From positions 124,001 through 188,000 of the forward strand of contig CALSSW010000001.1 of NCBI GenBank assembly GCA_943789105.1: 64,000 nucleotides of DNA, given 5' to 3'. Positions 11,178 through 54,045 of the stretch are shown here, piece by piece. The notes beneath the pieces are model-generated. The model had not been told where the DNA came from, did no database searches, and saw only the letters and a program-made list of their open reading frames with translations. Position numbers and translations under genes: made by a program. Positions within the stretch are counted from its first letter, which is position 1. Every line of letters starts with the position of its first letter. This stretch comes from an uncultured Ulvibacter sp. (GTDB taxonomy: Bacteria; Bacteroidota; Bacteroidia; Flavobacteriales; Flavobacteriaceae).

Positions 11178-13472
11178 ATGAGTAAACAAAGTAAACGCAA
11201 AGAAGCCCTTTTATATCACTCTAAGCCAAGACCCGGTAAGATTCAAGTTTTGCCTACCACAAAATATGCAACACAAAGAGATTTATCCCTAGCATACTCT
11301 CCTGGTGTGGCAGAGCCTTGCCTTGAGATAGCCAAAGATGTTGAGAATGTATATAAATATACCGCTAAAGGGAATTTGGTGGCGGTTATAACTAATGGTA
11401 CAGCGGTGTTAGGACTCGGAAACATAGGTCCTGAGGCCTCTAAACCTGTCATGGAAGGAAAAGGATTATTGTTTAAGATATTTGCAGATATTGATGTTTT
11501 TGATATCGAAATAGACACCGAAGATGTTGATGCTTTTGTTGAAACAGTAAAAAATATTGCACCCACATTTGGTGGAATTAATCTAGAAGATATTAAAGCT
11601 CCAGAGGCTTTTGAGATTGAAAGAAGGTTAAAGGAAGAGTTGGACATACCCGTTATGCATGATGACCAACATGGTACGGCAATTATTTCTTCTGCAGCAC
11701 TTTTAAATGCACTTGAGTTAACACATAAAAAAATTAATGAAGTAAAAATTGTTATAAGCGGTGCTGGTGCTGCTGCAGTATCTTGCACAAGACTCTATAA
11801 AGCCTTTGGCGCAGTTGGGACAAATATTGTCATGTTAGACAGTAAAGGAGTAATTAGGGATGACCGCTCTGAGCTGTCACCGGAGAAATCAGAATTTGCA
11901 ACCCACAGAAAGATAGACTCCTTAGATGAGGCTATGGTTGATGCAGATGTTTTTGTTGGGCTTTCTATTGCAGATATTGTAACCCCAAGTATGCTTAAGT
12001 CTATGGCTGCAGATCCTATTGTTTTTGCTATGGCAAATCCAAATCCTGAGATTGAATATAAGCTCGCCTGTAAAACCCGAGAGGATATTATCATGGCAAC
12101 AGGCAGGAGTGATCATCCTAATCAAGTAAATAATGTATTAGGCTTTCCTTTTATTTTTAGAGGAGCGCTAGATGTTCGTGCCACCAAGATAAACGAGGCC
12201 ATGAAAATGGCTGCTGTAAAAGCCTTGGCTGCACTAGCCAAAGAATCTGTGCCAGAACAAGTTAATATTGCCTATGGAGAGACCAAACTTATTTTTGGAA
12301 GAGATTATATCATCCCAAAACCCTTTGATCCAAGACTCATAGACCATATCCCTCCGGCTGTTGCAAAAGCGGCTATGGAAAGTGGCGTGGCCACTGCGCC
12401 AATTAACAACTGGAAAAAGTACAAAGATGAGTTAAACCAGCGCATGGGTGGAGATAATAAAATCATTCGCATGTTGCTAAGCCGTGCAAAGCAAAACCCA
12501 AAACGCATTGTCTTTGCAGAGGCAGATCACCTAAACGTATTAAAAGCAGCTCAGATTGTCTATGAAGAAGGAATAGGGATCCCTATTTTGTTGGGCAGAA
12601 AAGCTGTAATTCAGGAGCTTATGGAGCAAATTGAATTTGATGCAGACATAAAGATAATGGACCCCAAGGCAGATGATCAAGCCGAAAACTTGACAAGATA
12701 CGCTCAGAAGTTATTTGAAAATAGACATAGAAATGGTGTAACTCTATTTGATGCAGAAAAATTAATGCGAGAGCGCAATTACTTTGCAGCCATGATGCTT
12801 AACCAGGGAGATGCAGATGCAATGATTTCTGGCTATTCTAGAGCCTATCCTTCTGTGTTGCGTCCTGTGTTAGAGGTTGTAGGTCGTTTTGATGGGGTAA
12901 GTAAAGTGGCAACAACCAATATGATGCTCACTAAAAGAGGGCCTATTTTTATAAGTGACACCTCTATAAATATTGATCCTACTGCTAAAGAACTGGCCAA
13001 AATTGCCCAGATGACTAATTATACCATGAAGCTATTTGGACTCACGCCAGTAATTGCGATGATAAGTTATGCTAATTTTGGTTCTTCAAAAGACCCGCAT
13101 GCTACAAAGGTGCGTGATGCCGTGGCCTATTTGCATAGAACCAATCCAGACATGCATATAGATGGTGAGTTGCAAACAGACTTTGCTTTAAATCCAGAAA
13201 TGTTGCAGAGTAAATTTCCGTTTTCTAAGCTTGCAGGAAAAAAAGTAAACGCGCTTATATTTCCAAATTTAGATGCTGCCAACAGTAATTATAAATTATT
13301 AAAGGAGATCAATGGCGTTGACTCTGTAGGGCCTATTATGCTTGGAATGCGAAAGCCAGTTCACATTCTTCAACTAGGTGCTAGTGTAGAAGAAATTGTA
13401 AACATGGCAGCGGTGTCTGTGGTTGATGCTCAGCAAAAAGAAAAACGAGAGGAAACAGCCCAGCAGCAGTAA
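11178..13472 (+). CDS. maeB: NADP-type malic enzyme with C-terminal phosphotransacetylase-like domain
   Basis: A 764-residue two-domain protein. Residues 1 to about 410 are malic enzyme, which decarboxylates malate to pyruvate while making NAD(P)H: SPGVAEPC, the metal/catalytic region MHDDQHGTAI, the nucleotide-binding motif ISGAGAAAVSC, and MANPNPEI. Residues about 430-755 form a phosphate acetyl/butyryl-transferase-type domain (IVFAEADHLNVLKAA, DADAMISGYSRAYPS, TMKLFGLTP). In MaeB-type enzymes this domain is regulatory (acetyl-CoA) and is thought not to catalyse acetyl transfer. The length is normal for the fusion family. Together with PEP carboxylase in the same window it forms an anaplerotic/cataplerotic pair around the PEP-pyruvate-oxaloacetate node. 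Confidence 0.96.
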   Translation: MSKQSKRKEALLYHSKPRPGKIQVLPTTKYATQRDLSLAYSPGVAEPCLEIAKDVENVYKYTAKGNLVAVITNGTAVLGLGNIGPEASKPVMEGKGLLFKIFADIDVFDIEIDTEDVDAFVETVKNIAPTFGGINLEDIKAPEAFEIERRLKEELDIPVMHDDQHGTAIISSAALLNALELTHKKINEVKIVISGAGAAAVSCTRLYKAFGAVGTNIVMLDSKGVIRDDRSELSPEKSEFATHRKIDSLDEAMVDADVFVGLSIADIVTPSMLKSMAADPIVFAMANPNPEIEYKLACKTREDIIMATGRSDHPNQVNNVLGFPFIFRGALDVRATKINEAMKMAAVKALAALAKESVPEQVNIAYGETKLIFGRDYIIPKPFDPRLIDHIPPAVAKAAMESGVATAPINNWKKYKDELNQRMGGDNKIIRMLLSRAKQNPKRIVFAEADHLNVLKAAQIVYEEGIGIPILLGRKAVIQELMEQIEFDADIKIMDPKADDQAENLTRYAQKLFENRHRNGVTLFDAEKLMRERNYFAAMMLNQGDADAMISGYSRAYPSVLRPVLEVVGRFDGVSKVATTNMMLTKRGPIFISDTSINIDPTAKELAKIAQMTNYTMKLFGLTPVIAMISYANFGSSKDPHATKVRDAVAYLHRTNPDMHIDGELQTDFALNPEMLQSKFPFSKLAGKKVNALIFPNLDAANSNYKLLKEINGVDSVGPIMLGMRKPVHILQLGASVEEIVNMAAVSVVDAQQKEKREETAQQQ

Positions 13473-13526
13473 TGTTTCAGTAATAAATTTAGGTTTTAAC
13501 CCTTCAGATAAGCCAATAAAATATAC

Positions 13527-47850: not shown

Positions 47851-48568
47851 CTAAATATGTTTTTTATAATACGTGTAAATCTCCTCTGCAGACGCTCCCA
47901 ACCATTTTTTTAGGTATATCATCAAAAAGTGATATTGCAAGTGCCAAACCCCTTTTTTTTCATACAATCGGGCAGAGGTGATAATCCAATGTTGGATTAC
48001 AACAAATTGTTTTTTTTTGTAGAGTTGGTTGGTGAGTATTTGGTCTTCATAGATCGTATACTTCTGGTCAAAACCTCCTATTTCATTAAAAAGAGCTTTG
48101 GTGATAAAAAGACTTTGATCACCACCACGGCATATTTTCCAATTAAAGCGTGTTGCCCAACTCACCAGGGCTAACCACCAATGATTGCTGTCAAATCTCA
48201 TCTTAAAACATCCTGCTAGGCGTTGTTTTTTAATTTCAGATATAATACATGTATCAAAACCTTTTGGAGGGTATGAATCTGCGTGTAAAAAATATAAAAT
48301 TGAACTTTTGCTGAGGTTTGCCCCAGCGTTCATTTGTTTGGCACGACCTCTTTTTGATACAATTATTTTAATGTCAATACTGGCAGTTTATAGAAAACTC
48401 TTGGATCAAAGCAACAGTATTGTCCTGGCTATGGCCGTCTACCACAATAATTTCTGAAATATAACCTCCCGCTTGTTTTTCAATAAGATAGGCTAACAGG
48501 CCCTTAACATTTTCTGCTTCATTGAGAACCGGAATGATAATACTAATACTGTTTGCAGCTATTGGCAT
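47851..48568 (-). pseudogene. Arsenosugar-type GT2 glycosyltransferase (TIGR04283-like), one apparent frameshift
   Basis: Two reading frames make one glycosyltransferase of about 239 residues. The first (48568 to about 48383) gives ISIIIPVLNEAENVKGLL and EIIVVDGHSQDNT; the second continues with IIVSKRGRAKQMNAGANLS, YFLHADSYPPKGFD and the GGDQSLF-TKALFNEIGGFD and YEDQILTNQL blocks, all in the right order. One surplus base near 48382 explains the break. The family is the small GT2 group found in bacterial arsenosugar clusters. It lies six bases after the DUF547 gene. If the shift is real, the gene is dead; more likely it is a sequence error. Confidence 0.85.
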
Positions 48569-48574
48569 AGGGTT

Positions 48575-49363
48575 TTACTTGTTTAATTCCCAGTTATAAT
48601 CCAAGTAGTTTATGTTAGCATTACGCTGTATTTTTATCGTAGAATAGGTGTTTAGAAATTCAATTAAGCTTTGGTTTTTCTTGAAATCTTTAGAGAACCA
48701 CTTAAATATTTTTGAGATAGTAATGGCCTGTGGAGTGATTGTATTTCGCTGCATGTCATTTATAAATCGTACAGTCAAGGCTTCAAGTTGGGTATCTACG
48801 CTATGGGCAGTAAAGGCTTCATTTAATAAAACTGGGCATGAAAAAGAAGCGCAATTAATGGCAAAGTGGATTCGTGGATCCTCCATTTTTCTTAAAATTT
48901 GATGCTCTATTGTATCTAGGTTGTACATGGCGCCCCCCAGTTTCCATAAAGTCTGTTTCCAAGGATTGTCTATGTCTTTAATACTGCCAATGGGTTGGTT
49001 TCTGATAATTAAATCTATGGTCATTGCATTATATGCATTGATCCAGTAGGCTAGTTTCTCCTGTTTGCTCCAATTCTCTGTAGGTGTTTTTCTGCCAAGT
49101 GCATGCAAGTACATGCGCAGTACAGTCCTGTCTTTTTTAAACGCTTTGTAGTTTACCTTCCCTTCTGCGCTAACATTTTTTTGCAATAGGGCGTTAAATC
49201 CAGAGTGGTCAAAAACCTCCTTGTGTATAGAGTCTTTGGCAATCTTTGTTTTTAAAACAAAAGATGGTAAAGCATCTTGATTTGTTGTAGGATAAGCTGT
49301 TACCATTCCAACACTTGCCAAAATGATTGCTGTAATTGTTGCTATATAAAGGTAGTTTTTCAT
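48575..49363 (-). CDS. DUF547 domain protein, exported
   Basis: A 262-residue protein with an N-terminal signal sequence (residues 1-23) and a DUF547 domain: VNYKAFKKDR, KLAYWINAYNAMTIDLII, IRNQPIGSIKDID, and HFAINCASFSCPVLLNEAF. The conserved His/Cys and Tyr residues suggest an enzyme of the papain/transglutaminase-like group, but no activity is established. It lies between arsM and the TIGR04283-like gene with gaps of 15 and 6 bases. A role in arsenosugar metabolism is inferred from context. Confidence 0.9.
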   Translation of the reverse strand: MKNYLYIATITAIILASVGMVTAYPTTNQDALPSFVLKTKIAKDSIHKEVFDHSGFNALLQKNVSAEGKVNYKAFKKDRTVLRMYLHALGRKTPTENWSKQEKLAYWINAYNAMTIDLIIRNQPIGSIKDIDNPWKQTLWKLGGAMYNLDTIEHQILRKMEDPRIHFAINCASFSCPVLLNEAFTAHSVDTQLEALTVRFINDMQRNTITPQAITISKIFKWFSKDFKKNQSLIEFLNTYSTIKIQRNANINYLDYNWELNK

Positions 49364-49378
49364 CTTTTTTGAATTGTA

Positions 49379-50326
49379 TTAACAGCAACCACCACCATCA
49401 TAATGGTAAGTAGATTCGCTAAAATAGATGTCATCTCTATCTAGTGCTTTTAGGGCCTTTGCAGTTTTATCGCAAATGGCTAAGGGTTGATTTTTCAGTA
49501 AAATATGTCCTTTGTTATCGTCAAAGAAATCCTCGCCGCCATAATAAATTGCAGCTTTGCCTGTAAATATACAAGGGCCATCCTCTGGCATAGGATCTTT
49601 GATGGCCGCAACCTCAATAGATTCAATGTAAATTAATTCTTCAGTAGGGTAGTTTTTCGGGTCTAAAATTCTGTAGGGTTTTCGGGCTCTAATTTCTATG
49701 GTTCCAAATCCTACATCTGTGAGTGCCTTTACATAGTCTTTTATTGGCAAACTACCACTTAAACAAAGCGCACGCAAACGCGCATCGTTTCTTAGGGTGT
49801 CATTCATCTGCTGCTCACATGTTGGATCACTCATTACTAGTTTTCCGTGGGGTGTTAATACGCGGTACATTTCTTCTATGGCCCGTTTTAAGTCTTCTGC
49901 TTTAAAGATATTAAACAAACAGTTTTGTGCAGCTACATCAATGCTATTGTCATCAACGGGAAGGTGTAGAGCGTCTCCTTTTTTAAGAGTAACAAACTCA
50001 GATTTAAACCAAGGGTTTTGCGCTTCGGCAATTTTAAAATTTGCGGCAGAGGCCTCTAACATTTCGTCTACAACATCAACCCCAACAACTCCGCCCCTTT
50101 GACGATTAAAATATGAGAACTGTAATAATTCCATGCCGCCTCCAACTCCCACATAGAGCATTTTGGGATTGTTTGATAGATCTCGCGCATGTACGGTGCT
50201 TCCACAGCCGTAATTCATCTCTTGCATTATTTTAGGAATCTTTAAGCCGGGGAGTTCCCAAATAGGATTGGTGGTGCAGCAAAGCCCAACATCTGGAGTA
50301 AGTGCTGCCTTGTTTATAAACATCAT
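49379..50326 (-). CDS. arsM: Arsenite methyltransferase of the arsenosugar type
   Basis: A 315-residue SAM-dependent methyltransferase that adds methyl groups to As(III). Seen: N-terminal Cys pair in VGLCCTTNPIWELPG, another Cys in MNYGCGSTVHARDL, the SAM motif MLYVGVGGGMELLQF (about residue 57), VGVDVVDEM, the post-motif DVAAQNCLFNIF, and a C-terminal GGGCC. The conserved cysteines bind arsenic in this family. The long C-terminal part with YIESIEVAAIKDP matches the form found in arsenosugar clusters rather than plain detoxification ArsM. Tandem ATGs (50326 and 50323) are both possible starts. Confidence 0.92.
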   Translation of the reverse strand: MMFINKAALTPDVGLCCTTNPIWELPGLKIPKIMQEMNYGCGSTVHARDLSNNPKMLYVGVGGGMELLQFSYFNRQRGGVVGVDVVDEMLEASAANFKIAEAQNPWFKSEFVTLKKGDALHLPVDDNSIDVAAQNCLFNIFKAEDLKRAIEEMYRVLTPHGKLVMSDPTCEQQMNDTLRNDARLRALCLSGSLPIKDYVKALTDVGFGTIEIRARKPYRILDPKNYPTEELIYIESIEVAAIKDPMPEDGPCIFTGKAAIYYGGEDFFDDNKGHILLKNQPLAICDKTAKALKALDRDDIYFSESTYHYDGGGCC

Positions 50327-50366: not shown

Positions 50367-51180
50367 CTAAAGCGATTGTATCAGTTCTGTAAATAGGGTA
50401 ATCATAGCAGGTTCTGCTTTTCCAGCTTGCGCAATAATATCTGTAATGTCAACAGGTTTTAAATTATCTGGATCACACTCATCTGTTAATACAGAGAGGG
50501 CTATAACCGGTATTTGTAGATGATTGGCAACAATAATTTCTGGCACGGTACTCATTCCTACCGCATCTGCGCCAATAATTTTTAGGTATCTATATTCTGC
50601 TCTTGTTTCTAGTTGAGGTCCTACAACACTTGCGTATACACCCTTGTGCAGATTTATGTTGTGTGCGGCTGCAATTTCTTCTATTTTGGCGTTCATTTTT
50701 GCATCATAGGGTTGGTTTAAGTCTACAAAACGCTCTCCTAGTTTTTCAACACCTTTAAAGGCTAAAGGTGATCCACCTTGCAAATTGATGTGATCATCAA
50801 TAAGCATAATTTCTCCTTTTTTAAAGTTTAAATTTATAGCACCAGAGGCGTTACTTACAAATAATCTTGTTATTCCTAGTCCTTTCATAACACGAACTGG
50901 AAAGGTGACATCAAGCAGGGAATACCCTTCATATAAATGAAAACGACCTTGCATTAACACTACTTTTTTCCCTGCTAGTTCTCCGTATATTAATTTTCCT
51001 TTATGAAACTCAACAGTAGCTGTTGGAAAATTAGGAATATGGTTGTAGCTCATTTCTGCCTCAACAGCTACGTGATCAATAATTTTCCCTAAGCCAGTTC
51101 CTAAGAATAATACCTATATCTGGGGTTCCAAAACCTCTGCTTTGTAAAAATTCTACAGCCTCTTGTATGTGTTTTATCAT
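50367..51180 (-). pseudogene. Purine-nucleoside phosphorylase, one apparent frameshift
   Basis: PNP/MTAP-family phosphorylase. The main frame (51053 down to 50367) starts at MSYNHIPNFPTATVEFHKG and includes VVLMQGRFHLYEGY, LFVSNASGAINLNFKKGE and ADAVGMSTVPEIIVA. The family N-terminus lies upstream: ATG 51180 reads MIKHIQEAVEFLQSRGFGTPD, and after one surplus base near 51101 the frame reads GTGLGKIIDHV, the usual phosphate-loop region, straight into MSYNHIP. Corrected length is about 271 residues. In this cluster the enzyme could split adenine from the deoxyadenosyl-arsenical made by ArsS. It may also be an ordinary purine-salvage enzyme. The shift may be a sequencing error. Confidence 0.85.
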
Positions 51181-51324: not shown

Positions 51325-52006
51325 TTAGTCTTTCATGTGAGGGAAGAATTTTTTAAACACGGCAATGTCTTTGATATCTTCATAGTGATCTACGTCATTT
51401 TTCTCTGCCAAGATTGCTAGGTTTTCCTAATTCTAAATCTTGTAATGTGTCATTTAAAACACGTTGTGTCCCCCATTTTTTATTTTTAAAAAGGGGAGGC
51501 TTTAGGTGTTTCATGCCAAGTAGGTAATAGCCTCCATCTTGTGCAGGGCCTATTACAAACTCTTTGTCTTCTAGTTTTAAAAAAGCATCCTCCAGCTCTT
51601 GGGTAGTGAGATCATACAAGTCACTACCAATAATGATAGCCCTTTGATAACCCATATTAAATACCTCTGTAAATGCGTGTTGCATCTTATGGCCTAAATC
51701 ATGACCTTGTTGTTGTTTTTTCCTAAAAATAGAAGTATCCCAAATATCAACATCTTTAATTTTTTCAGAATAATACACATACACATCTGCTGCAAGGGGA
51801 GTTGTTATTTTTACTGTGTGGTCTAATAAAAACCGATACACATCAAGGGCGCTTTGATCTCCAATTGTGGCTGCAAGTCGTGTTTTGCATTTGCCCAGTT
51901 CTGGGTTTCTTGTAAAAACGATAAGAGCACTTTTTGAACTTGGCAGATGAAACACTTTTTTTGATTGCTGATTACCAAGATTTGTTTTAACTCCTAAAAT
52001 TGCCAT
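51325..52006 (-). pseudogene. Arsenosugar-type GT-A glycosyltransferase (DUF2064/TIGR04282), one apparent frameshift near its end
   Basis: The first 197 codons give a typical DUF2064 protein: SALIVFTRNPELGKCKTRLA at the N-terminus, YVYYSEK, DLGHKMQHAF, RAIIIGSDLYDLTTQEL, and FVIGPAQDGGYYLLG. Near 51420 the frame hits a stop after PSNLGREK, but one base further the sequence continues LAILAEKNDVDHYEDIK and ends at a stop at 51325-51327, which is the usual family C-terminus. One surplus base in the ...AAAACCTAG stretch explains it; corrected length is about 226 residues. It starts 19 bases after the rhodanese gene. Confidence 0.85.
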
Positions 52007-52025: not shown

Positions 52026-52529
52026 TTATTTATTGGATACTTTAATGCCTTTGGTGAGCCATTTCCCCCATTGTTTTGAGTACACGTGTACGCTGTCTGT
52101 GGGTTTTTGCTGCCTATTCACTACTGGTAAATTATTGTTTTTCCAGTTAAAGATACCTCCGTATAGGTTTTTGATATTTGTGTACCCTGCCTTTTGAAGT
52201 GTCTCTGCTATATCTTCACTTCTAACCCCTAAAGAGCAGTACACAATAATTTGGGCGTCTTTGCTTTTAATGTTTTTTGAAACTTTTTGTAAATCAAAAT
52301 CTTCATAACCTGCATGCACAGCTCCTTTAATGTGGCTTACTTTATATTCCTTTTTTTCTCTAGTATCTAGTAGTACCACAGTGGGGTCATTTTGAACCTC
52401 TACAAGCATTTTAGCAGAAACATAAGGGATACTTTGTTTGTTGTATTTTAATAAAACCTGCTCTAATGTTTGCTGGGCAAGGCTGGTTGTTGCCTCAAAA
52501 AAAAGTACTATGTAGCAAAGTGTTTTCAT
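52026..52529 (-). CDS. Exported rhodanese-domain protein
   Basis: A 167-residue protein with an N-terminal signal sequence (through SLAQQ) and one rhodanese domain: VLLDTREKKEYKVSHIKGAVH and the active-site loop VYCSLGVRSEDIA with the catalytic Cys (about residue 94), then LYGGIFNWKNNNLPV. Rhodaneses move sulfane sulfur and occasionally have arsenate reductase activity in related folds. It starts five bases after arsS and therefore is co-transcribed. Its exact task in the pathway is unknown. Confidence 0.92.
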   Translation of the reverse strand: MKTLCYIVLFFEATTSLAQQTLEQVLLKYNKQSIPYVSAKMLVEVQNDPTVVLLDTREKKEYKVSHIKGAVHAGYEDFDLQKVSKNIKSKDAQIIVYCSLGVRSEDIAETLQKAGYTNIKNLYGGIFNWKNNNLPVVNRQQKPTDSVHVYSKQWGKWLTKGIKVSNK

Positions 52530-52534
52530 GTTAT

Positions 52535-53602
52535 TTATGTTGTAACTACTCCCTGACAGCTGCTTCCTGCTCCAGCGGTACAGCCATAACAGTGCTGGGA
52601 AATAACAATATCTCTATTGTTTAAAATAGATTCATTATACTGGTTTATATGGGTGACTTTACTAGCAACTTTGAGCCCTAACATTTGATTGAAATCACAG
52701 TCATACAAATACCCGTCCCATGAAATAGAAATTGTATTGTTACACATAACGCTTTTAACAGCCTTTGGATTGTATGCCTCTACAAGTTGGTACATATAAT
52801 CTTCATAGTTTTCACTGGCAATGAGATAGTCAAGAAATCTTGAAATAGGAAGATTGGTAATGGCAAAAAGATTGTGAAATTGTATATTAAAATCTGCTAG
52901 CATGGCACTTTTAAACTCCTTTTCCATGCTGGCTTGATTTCCTGGTAAGTAGGCTCCGTTTGGATTGTAGACTAAATCTAGTTTTAAACTACTGCCAGGC
53001 ATTCCATAACCTACTGCATTTAATTGCTTAAGTGCAGTGATAGATTTATCAAAGACTCCTTCTCCACGTTGTTTATCTGTTTTACCTTTTGTCCAGTGGG
53101 GCATTGAGCTAACCACATGAACATTGTATTTTTTAAAGAACTGTGGTAAATCATGGTATTTTTTATTGGCTCTTATGATGGTAAGGTTGCTTCTTACTAT
53201 AAAATCTTTAATACCTGCCTGGCTCGCCCTTTCTACAAAACGTATAAAGTTAGGGTTCATCTCTGGGGCGCCACCTGTAAGGTCTAGGGTATGAGCTCCA
53301 GTGTTCTTTATGATTTCAAGACACTTTTGCATAGTTTCCCAAGTCATGATCTCTTTTCTGTCTGGCCCTGCATCAACATGGCAGTGTTCACACACTTGGT
53401 TACACATATAACCAAGATTTATTTGAAGGATTTCCAACTTTTTTGGACGAAGTGGGAACTGGTTTGTCTGTGTTATTTTTTTTGCAAAAGTGGGTAGTTC
53501 TCCATTTTCGAAAATACCACCATTTAAAATTTCTAATTGGCGGTTTGGGTTTGCCAATTGGTTTTCTCTTTTATGAAGGGATTGTTGTTTTAGTTTTGAC
53601 AT
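52535..53602 (-). CDS. arsS: Arsenosugar biosynthesis radical SAM protein ArsS
   Basis: A 355-residue radical SAM enzyme. The cluster-binding motif CNQVCEHC (CxxxCxxC) is at about residue 70, with DLTGGAPEMNP and the SSMPHW region. The C-terminal Cys-rich tail (CNNTISISWDGYLYDCDFNQ, CYGCTAGAGSSCQG) marks the TIGR04167 type. These enzymes are established as transferring the 5'-deoxyadenosyl group of SAM onto dimethylarsenite, giving the precursor of arsenosugars. It lies next to the peroxidase-like gene upstream and the rhodanese gene downstream, and arsM, pnp and two glycosyltransferases follow. Confidence 0.94.
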   Translation of the reverse strand: MSKLKQQSLHKRENQLANPNRQLEILNGGIFENGELPTFAKKITQTNQFPLRPKKLEILQINLGYMCNQVCEHCHVDAGPDRKEIMTWETMQKCLEIIKNTGAHTLDLTGGAPEMNPNFIRFVERASQAGIKDFIVRSNLTIIRANKKYHDLPQFFKKYNVHVVSSMPHWTKGKTDKQRGEGVFDKSITALKQLNAVGYGMPGSSLKLDLVYNPNGAYLPGNQASMEKEFKSAMLADFNIQFHNLFAITNLPISRFLDYLIASENYEDYMYQLVEAYNPKAVKSVMCNNTISISWDGYLYDCDFNQMLGLKVASKVTHINQYNESILNNRDIVISQHCYGCTAGAGSSCQGVVTT

Positions 53603-53709: not shown

Positions 53710-54045
53710 TTACATTTCTAGCTTGTTTACTTTGTTCATCATCATGGTACCATGCACAAGAGTTGCCCCACTTTTAATGGCTGCTCCTACATGAATGGCT
53801 TCCATCATTTGTTCTTTGGTTACACCGCGCTCAAGAGAGTCTTTGGTATAGGCATCTATACAATAGGGGCATTGTTCTGTGTGAGATACTGCCAGGGCAA
53901 TTAATGATTTTTCGCGAGCTGTTAAGGCGCCCTCTTCAAAGACTTTGCCATAATAATCAAAAAACTTGTTGCCAAGTTCTTCACTCCATTGTGTAATGTT
54001 ACCAAATTTTCTAAGGTCTGCAGGGTCGTAATAATTGTTTGCCAT
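53710..54045 (-). CDS. Arsenosugar biosynthesis-associated AhpD/peroxidase-like protein
   Basis: A 111-residue CMD/AhpD-fold protein starting MANNYYDPADLRKFG. The redox motif CPYC (EQCPYCIDAYTKDSLE, about residue 64) and the downstream His in EAIHVGAAIKSGATLVHG are in place. This is the small family that accompanies ArsS in arsenosugar clusters (TIGR04169-like). It may reduce an As(V) or peroxide intermediate. ATG 54045 is chosen because the in-frame extension to 54126 adds an unlikely Cys/Phe/Tyr-rich stretch. It is the first gene of the minus-strand run; arsS follows 107 bases later. Confidence 0.9.
   Translation of the reverse strand: MANNYYDPADLRKFGNITQWSEELGNKFFDYYGKVFEEGALTAREKSLIALAVSHTEQCPYCIDAYTKDSLERGVTKEQMMEAIHVGAAIKSGATLVHGTMMMNKVNKLEM

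Follow-up and report, generated by a model that had tools for sequence, protein, structure and literature searches.

A trimeric purine nucleoside phosphorylase in the arsenosugar operon of Flavobacteriaceae is a candidate enzyme for adenine removal

We analyzed a window of 64,000 nucleotides of DNA from an uncultured Ulvibacter sp. of the family Flavobacteriaceae (positions 124,001 to 188,000 of contig CALSSW010000001.1, assembly GCA_943789105.1), in which a purine nucleoside phosphorylase (PNP) gene lies within a run of minus-strand genes. In minus-strand order, the run begins upstream of arsS with a gene for an AhpD/CMD-like protein (53710–54045; TIGR04169, 188.3 bits against a cut-off of 120, with 53710–54036 scanned). 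It is followed by arsS itself (52535–53602; TIGR04167, 428.9 bits, cut-off 300), encoding a radical SAM enzyme that should link dimethylarsenic to 5'-deoxyadenosine, and by genes for a rhodanese-domain protein (52026–52529; NF045521, 195 bits, cut-off 145) and a TIGR04282 protein named as a glycosyltransferase (51395–52006; 197.5 bits, cut-off 134), the C-terminal end of which is in another frame. Next are the PNP gene (50367–51180) and an arsM of the arsenosugar type (49379–50326; NF038099, 544.9 bits, cut-off 400), whose first codons, from about 50348, are in another frame. The run ends with genes for a DUF547 protein (48575–49363; PF04784, 100.6 bits) and a TIGR04283 family-2 glycosyltransferase, which lies in two frames (47851–48574) and whose longer piece scores 177.6 bits (cut-off 182). 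The sequence-only reading of this DNA had placed the PNP inside an arsenosugar run, and this is confirmed: the gene lies 1.4 kb downstream of arsS and is flanked by the TIGR04282 gene and arsM, all on the minus strand. Between 47851 and 51395 there is a frame break in each of four genes (TIGR04282, PNP, arsM and TIGR04283), and these breaks are probably errors of the draft assembly rather than decay.

The PNP open frame spans 50367–51113, and a single frame break interrupts the gene close to its start, between 51113 and 51180, because the ATG at 51180, the end coordinate of the earlier reading, is in a different frame. The encoded protein scores 314.9 bits against the trimeric PNP family NF006054 (cut-off 218) and 164.8 bits against PF01048 (PNP_UDP_1; cut-off 25.1), while the piece without the N-terminus reaches 281 against TIGR01700, below the cut-off of 293.35. 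The label of methylthioadenosine phosphorylase (MTAP), which had been used to argue that a 5'-arsenical is a sensible substrate, does not hold, as the match to TIGR01694 is 83.8 bits, far under the cut-off of 274.85. Because NF006054 is exceeded and TIGR01694 is not approached, the window protein is a PNP and not an MTAP. Compared with the PNP of a congener (G076), the window gene has 42, 18 and 125 differences at codon positions 1, 2 and 3 across 245 codons, and by this pattern it looks to be under selection apart from its frame break. The predicted structure of the G076 protein (277 amino acids, pLDDT 92.1) has the PNP fold, and its best match is PNP I of Spirosoma linguale (4lna; Z 41.3, rmsd 1.2 over 268 residues), with PNP I of Planctomyces limnophilus also close (4m1e; Z 40.8, rmsd 1.5 over 273). 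The two solved enzymes share with it an Asp at the base-recognition place and have Leu at the place of human His257. These two PNPs were compared by structure and sequence; the branch of the window gene is located at arsenosugar loci and, within one genus, follows arsS.

A set of 249 Flavobacteriaceae genomes contains ArsS over the cut-off in 184 and a trimeric PNP in 223, with exactly one trimeric match in 220 of those 223. By score and by tree, the PNPs of the family split into an ordinary class and a subfamily that includes the window gene. For the family counts the split was made by score, an NF006054 E-value of 1e-108 or better marking the ordinary class, and none of the rows that we inspected (97 rows from 96 of the 207 subfamily genomes, and 17 of 17 ordinary) contradicted the score; G146, in which the PNP is broken, stands in the subfamily count and outside the residue counts. 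The subfamily is present in 183 of the 184 genomes with arsS, the exception being G232 (80% complete), versus 24 of the 65 genomes lacking arsS. Another 16 of these 65 carry the ordinary class and 25 are without any trimeric PNP; six PNP-less family genomes were identified by subtraction. At this scale, the association between arsS and the PNP is confounded by descent.

Gene order is conserved in the family well beyond chance. Among the matches listed, 66 of the 104 family genomes for which both places are listed have the PNP downstream of arsS, on its strand and less than 5 kb away, and in the remaining 38 it is either 9–11 kb from arsS (10 genomes) or far off or on another contig (28 genomes). 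We inspected 26 of these 28 unlinked genomes, G103 and G164 being left out, and found that the PNP adjoins the TIGR04282 gene in all 26 and arsM in 19. One genome, G178 (L140, L147), has two ArsS genes and two subfamily PNP genes. Six genomes with arsS, namely the congener G076, G152, G050, G075, G225 and G080, gave no arsenosugar-type arsM at an E-value of 1e-60.

We also compared 199 genomes of a single genus, which we take to be Flavobacterium, as the PNP from L237 (Flavobacterium turcicum) groups with the rows of this genus. Twelve of these genomes carry arsS, 11 over the cut-off and one (G628) as a fragment that was counted as positive. The subfamily PNP is present in 12/12 genomes with arsS and in 0/187 without it (Fisher p 1.7e-19). 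The two classes were told apart by A1 score, with subfamily E-values running from 8.4e-139 to 5.8e-116 and the best among the 187 genomes lacking arsS at 2.4e-100; we inspected 12/12 subfamily rows and 20 ordinary rows. The expectation that this PNP subfamily tracks arsS across genomes is thus borne out in the genus and in the family.

Among the places listed, the PNP is less than 2 kb from arsS in 10 of these 12 genomes. It lies 8 kb from arsS on the same strand in G541, and on a separate small contig in G628, a very fragmented assembly. Two arrangements occur, one with the PNP in line with arsS and arsM, the other with the PNP divergent from a DUF547-CMD-arsS-arsM-TIGR04282 run. G508 and G518 have the order CMD, arsS, PNP, arsM with no intervening gene of 100 amino acids, and in G647 the PNP again lies between arsS and arsM. 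Two loci have, near CMD-arsS-PNP-arsM, genes that we named by eye as methionine sulfoxide reductases (L298, 4149–4769; L299, 10304–11477). In the divergent arrangement of L305, the TIGR04282 gene is followed by a gene for a PlsC-like acyltransferase, also named by eye (12552–13505), which perhaps serves arsenolipids.

A separate, ordinary PNP is encoded elsewhere in 9 of the 12 genus genomes with arsS, and no second PNP was found in G508 and G611. We count nine rather than ten because the second match of G628 could be another fragment of one and the same gene, which is broken there. As a stand-in for the species tree, we used a tree of ordinary PNPs from 9 genus rows with arsS and 11 without, on which the arsS label needs six changes, four of them forced by well supported branches. 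Additionally, the subfamily PNPs form two clades within the genus. With two arrangements, two PNP clades and repeated changes in arsS, the pairing of arsS and PNP is unlikely to be one inherited accident.

The subfamily also occurs without arsS. In 12 of the 24 arsS-less subfamily genomes of the family the PNP adjoins the TIGR04282 gene, and the PNP flanks of 1.5 to 5 kb fetched from the remaining 12 showed no cluster gene; an arsM of the arsenosugar type was found in 0/24. The former 12 are G018, G129, G184, G199, G227, G001, G203, G242, G037, G104, G247 and G236 (loci L103, L107–L110, L123, L124, L127, L129, L131, L134 and L136), and 11 of these 12 loci also carry a rhodanese, DUF547 or TIGR04283 gene. 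On the PNP tree, arsS-less rows are scattered among rows with arsS, as would be expected if arsS had been lost in them. A role confined to arsenic is not upheld by the 12 genomes that keep the PNP beside TIGR04282 without arsS, and, given these genomes without arsS and arsM, the NCBI name of TIGR04282, 'arsenosugar biosynthesis glycosyltransferase', may be too narrow.

Outside the family there is no tracking. A PNP is present in 91/91 genomes with arsS and 125/129 without; the gene tracks the maker of a 5'-modified adenosine in the tested genus, and this does not hold outside the family. No PNP or uridine-phosphorylase-like gene was found in 20 arsS loci of other Bacteroidota families, at about 20 kb each. 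Across phyla we read the best 80 arsS loci of a larger set, whose flanks range from short ones up to 10 kb; eight contain a PNP, all eight titled Bacteroidota, and the four cyanobacterial loci among the 80 contain none near arsS. The link between arsS and PNP is also seen in the families of loci L240, L248, L261, L274 and L276, and intact relatives of the PNP are encoded, for example, at L237 and at L260 (Aureivirga sp. CE67). Generality of the proposal is not supported, as no PNP beside arsS was seen outside Bacteroidota in these 80 loci. There, another enzyme would be needed, perhaps MTA phosphorylase, which is reported in cyanobacteria in the accessible part of PMC8102628. We dropped a provisional finding that Synechococcus elongatus has no PF01048 proteins, since the same text reports an MTA phosphorylase in that organism.

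The 5' pocket of the subfamily differs from that of ordinary PNPs, as had been anticipated. The place of human His257 was set by alignment to solved bacterial PNPs; we take a familiar motif to mark the human residue in this alignment, and the human numbering is in part presumed. According to the accessible text of PMC3214022, Asn243 and Glu201 of human PNP hold the purine and His257 binds the 5'-hydroxyl. Ordinary PNPs have His at this place in 17/17 family rows and 20/20 genus rows, versus Ile or Val in 74/74 subfamily rows from family genomes with arsS and Ile in 12/12 genus rows. The contact with the 5'-hydroxyl thus appears to be lost in the subfamily, which is what a 5'-arsenical substrate would allow. 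The portion of PMC12648331 available to us gives a hydrogen-bonded 5' side chain in 81 of 89 nucleoside phosphorylase complexes versus 1 of 21 MTAPs.

The substitution is not specific to arsenic and looks older than its use here, because it is general elsewhere: Leu, Ile or Val is found in 22/22 PNPs from other Bacteroidota families, and Ile, Val or Leu in 22/23 arsS-less subfamily rows, the remaining row having Phe. Comparing 74 subfamily rows with arsS to these 23, we found no residues that clearly separate the two groups. Asp at the place of Asn243 was considered as a discriminating residue and set aside, being present in 37/37 ordinary PNPs as well. Solved E201Q/N243D forms of the human enzyme bind 2-fluoroadenine, going by their entry titles, and with Asp at the 243 place in both PNP classes, adenine is plausible as a base for both. 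Two arsS-less loci (L280 and L284, of G425 and G295) carry tandem PNP genes whose base-recognition residue is Asn in one copy and Asp in the other, and offer a natural pair for work on specificity.

In this family, we propose, the arsenosugar operon has recruited a trimeric PNP, which would phosphorolyze the arsenonucleoside made by ArsS to a sugar-1-phosphate that is passed onward, a reading to which we assign a probability of roughly 0.6. The ArsM and ArsS steps are known from other organisms. Here, ArsM would make dimethylarsenite, which ArsS would join to the 5' carbon of 5'-deoxyadenosine; the adenosylation of arsenic by ArsS is described in the accessible part of PMC12159101. From the PNP onward, everything, its substrate and product included, is as we infer it: with phosphate, the PNP would release adenine and leave 5-deoxy-5-dimethylarsinoyl-ribose-1-phosphate, which would perhaps be taken up first by the TIGR04282 protein, similar to nucleotidylyltransferases, and next by the glycosyltransferase TIGR04283. 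Where it is the sole PNP of a genome, the subfamily enzyme probably serves ordinary purine salvage as well.

The handling of the sugar phosphate is suggested by the TIGR04282 protein. The window member matches PF01983 (CofC) at 24.9 bits (cut-off 22), and a relative from L305, modelled at pLDDT 93.6, has 3cgx as its best structural match (Z 26.4, rmsd 1.9 over 194). This model also resembles 3-phosphoglycerate guanylyltransferase (7p97; Z 20.4, rmsd 2.4 over 185) and the nucleotidylyltransferase 2i5e (Z 19.4, rmsd 2.2 over 178), with the glycosyltransferase mannosylglycerate synthase more distant (Z 13.9, rmsd 3.1 over 161). The modelled fold is thus nucleotidylyltransferase-like, though fold alone shows no function. 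The pairing of a nucleotidylyltransferase-like protein with a neighbouring producer of a sugar-1-phosphate suggests a route by phosphorolysis and a nucleotide sugar; the 18 kb read in G508 and G518 revealed no TIGR04282 gene. PNPs turn a β-nucleoside into an α-1-phosphate, and family-2 glycosyltransferases invert. Natural arsenosugars are β-ribosides, according to the accessible portion of PMC10456119, and the stereochemistry of a nucleotide-sugar route would fit. Tentatively, and with considerable doubt, we can imagine the altered-pocket PNP giving α-arsenoribose-1-phosphate, a misnamed TIGR04282 protein converting it to NDP-arsenoribose, and TIGR04283 inverting to the β-riboside, the same three enzymes also running on non-arsenic 5-deoxyribose-1-phosphate. 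Such use of the non-arsenic sugar would account for the genomes that retain the three enzymes after the loss of arsS and arsM.

The plainest alternative is that the gene encodes an ordinary purine salvage enzyme which cleaves inosine, guanosine or adenosine and has come into the operon by chance, with no link to arsenic. A single trimeric PNP in nearly all PNP-bearing family genomes (220/223) would fit this, as would retention of the subfamily in 24 genomes lacking arsS, 12 of them without cluster genes in the fetched flanks. The sequence-only reading took the lack of a second, independent PNP as a sign of a salvage enzyme, a sign that is not decisive, as the lack does not apply to the group as a whole: in the window's own assembly (83% complete) only a uridine-phosphorylase-like gene was found apart from the PNP, while a DeoD PNP is present in 108 of the 184 family genomes with arsS, including G076, and a second PNP in 9 of 12 in the genus. 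A further family genome, G033 (apparently Aureivirga), has an ordinary PNP elsewhere besides its subfamily PNP. We consider a pure salvage role unlikely, given the strict tracking of arsS in a genus where most positive genomes also have an ordinary PNP, the position of the gene between arsS and arsM, and the replacement of His257. That replacement would also suit a 5'-deoxy group, and the PNP might instead clear 5'-deoxyadenosine or methylthioadenosine, protecting ArsS from an inhibitor of radical SAM enzymes rather than forming an arsenosugar. ArsS is, however, redox neutral, its adenosyl group being joined to arsenic rather than released as 5'-deoxyadenosine, and such bacteria generally have other radical SAM enzymes, yet 187/187 arsS-less genus genomes do without the subfamily. 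Clearance is therefore improbable here, even though radical SAM enzymes are inhibited by 5'-deoxyadenosine, which the MTA phosphorylase of Synechococcus elongatus cleaves (PMC8102628, accessible part).

The retention of PNP and TIGR04282 genes in 12 genomes lacking arsS, in 11 cases together with rhodanese, DUF547 or TIGR04283 genes, raises the further idea that these genes encode a separate pathway to another (deoxy)ribosyl glycoside, with the arsenic genes as an optional input. The absence of arsenosugar-type arsM from all 24 arsS-less subfamily genomes agrees with this. We nonetheless think it very improbable: in the tested genus the subfamily PNP never occurs without arsS, the 18 kb read in G508 and G518 showed none of the partners, and retention after the loss of arsS may be mere residue. 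Lastly, given a dithiol, mammalian PNP can reduce arsenate in vitro (PMC12608789, accessible part), so the enzyme could take arsenate in place of phosphate and, with a thiol, supply arsenite as the substrate of ArsM. For this any PNP would do, including the ordinary one already present in 9 of the 12 genus genomes, and a changed 5' pocket would not be needed; an arsenate-reducing role is hardly credible.

Known systems offer partial parallels to the proposed phosphorolysis of an arsenonucleoside. The closest working parallel is FlB of the fluorometabolite pathway, an MTAP-like enzyme and in this unlike the window PNP. Its substrate is 5'-fluoro-5'-deoxyadenosine, in which the 5' oxygen is likewise replaced by another element (PMC8694150, in the part accessible). 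The same text describes NucPNP of the nucleocidin pathway, a PNP in a biosynthetic cluster with a radical SAM gene that acts on MTA and adenosine; it is, however, a proposed adenine supplier and not a processor of the radical SAM product. MTA phosphorylase (MTAP/MtnP) shares the type of substrate, a 5'-modified adenosine, and is unlike the window PNP in family, as the TIGR01694 score indicates. The arsenosugar pathway of Synechocystis has the same first two enzymes, ArsM and ArsS (PMC8552651, accessible portion), whereas the four cyanobacterial loci that we read have no PNP near arsS.

To our knowledge, the adenine-removal step of arsenosugar synthesis has not yet been assigned to an enzyme. 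In titles and the opening parts of abstracts, with most subscription papers outside the scope of the search, we found no paper making such an assignment, and the accessible parts of PMC12608789, PMC12159101, PMC8552651 and PMC10456119 contain none. The suggestion that this PNP removes adenine from the product of ArsS was first drawn from gene order and chemistry. Its account of gene order, of tracking with arsS and of the pocket has stood; the MTAP label, an exclusive tie to arsenic and generality beyond Bacteroidota have not. The idea thus has partial support, more than gene order and chemistry by themselves had given it, and the PNP is a strong candidate for the step. Because the genus pattern names one enzyme and provides an ordinary PNP of the same cell as a built-in control, the depurination step is directly testable, and if the enzyme works as a phosphorylase and not as a hydrolase, the intermediate to expect next is an activated sugar-1-phosphate. 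If the proposal is true, a PNP would have turned biosynthetic in the arsenosugar synthesis of these bacteria, acting after the known steps of ArsM and ArsS.
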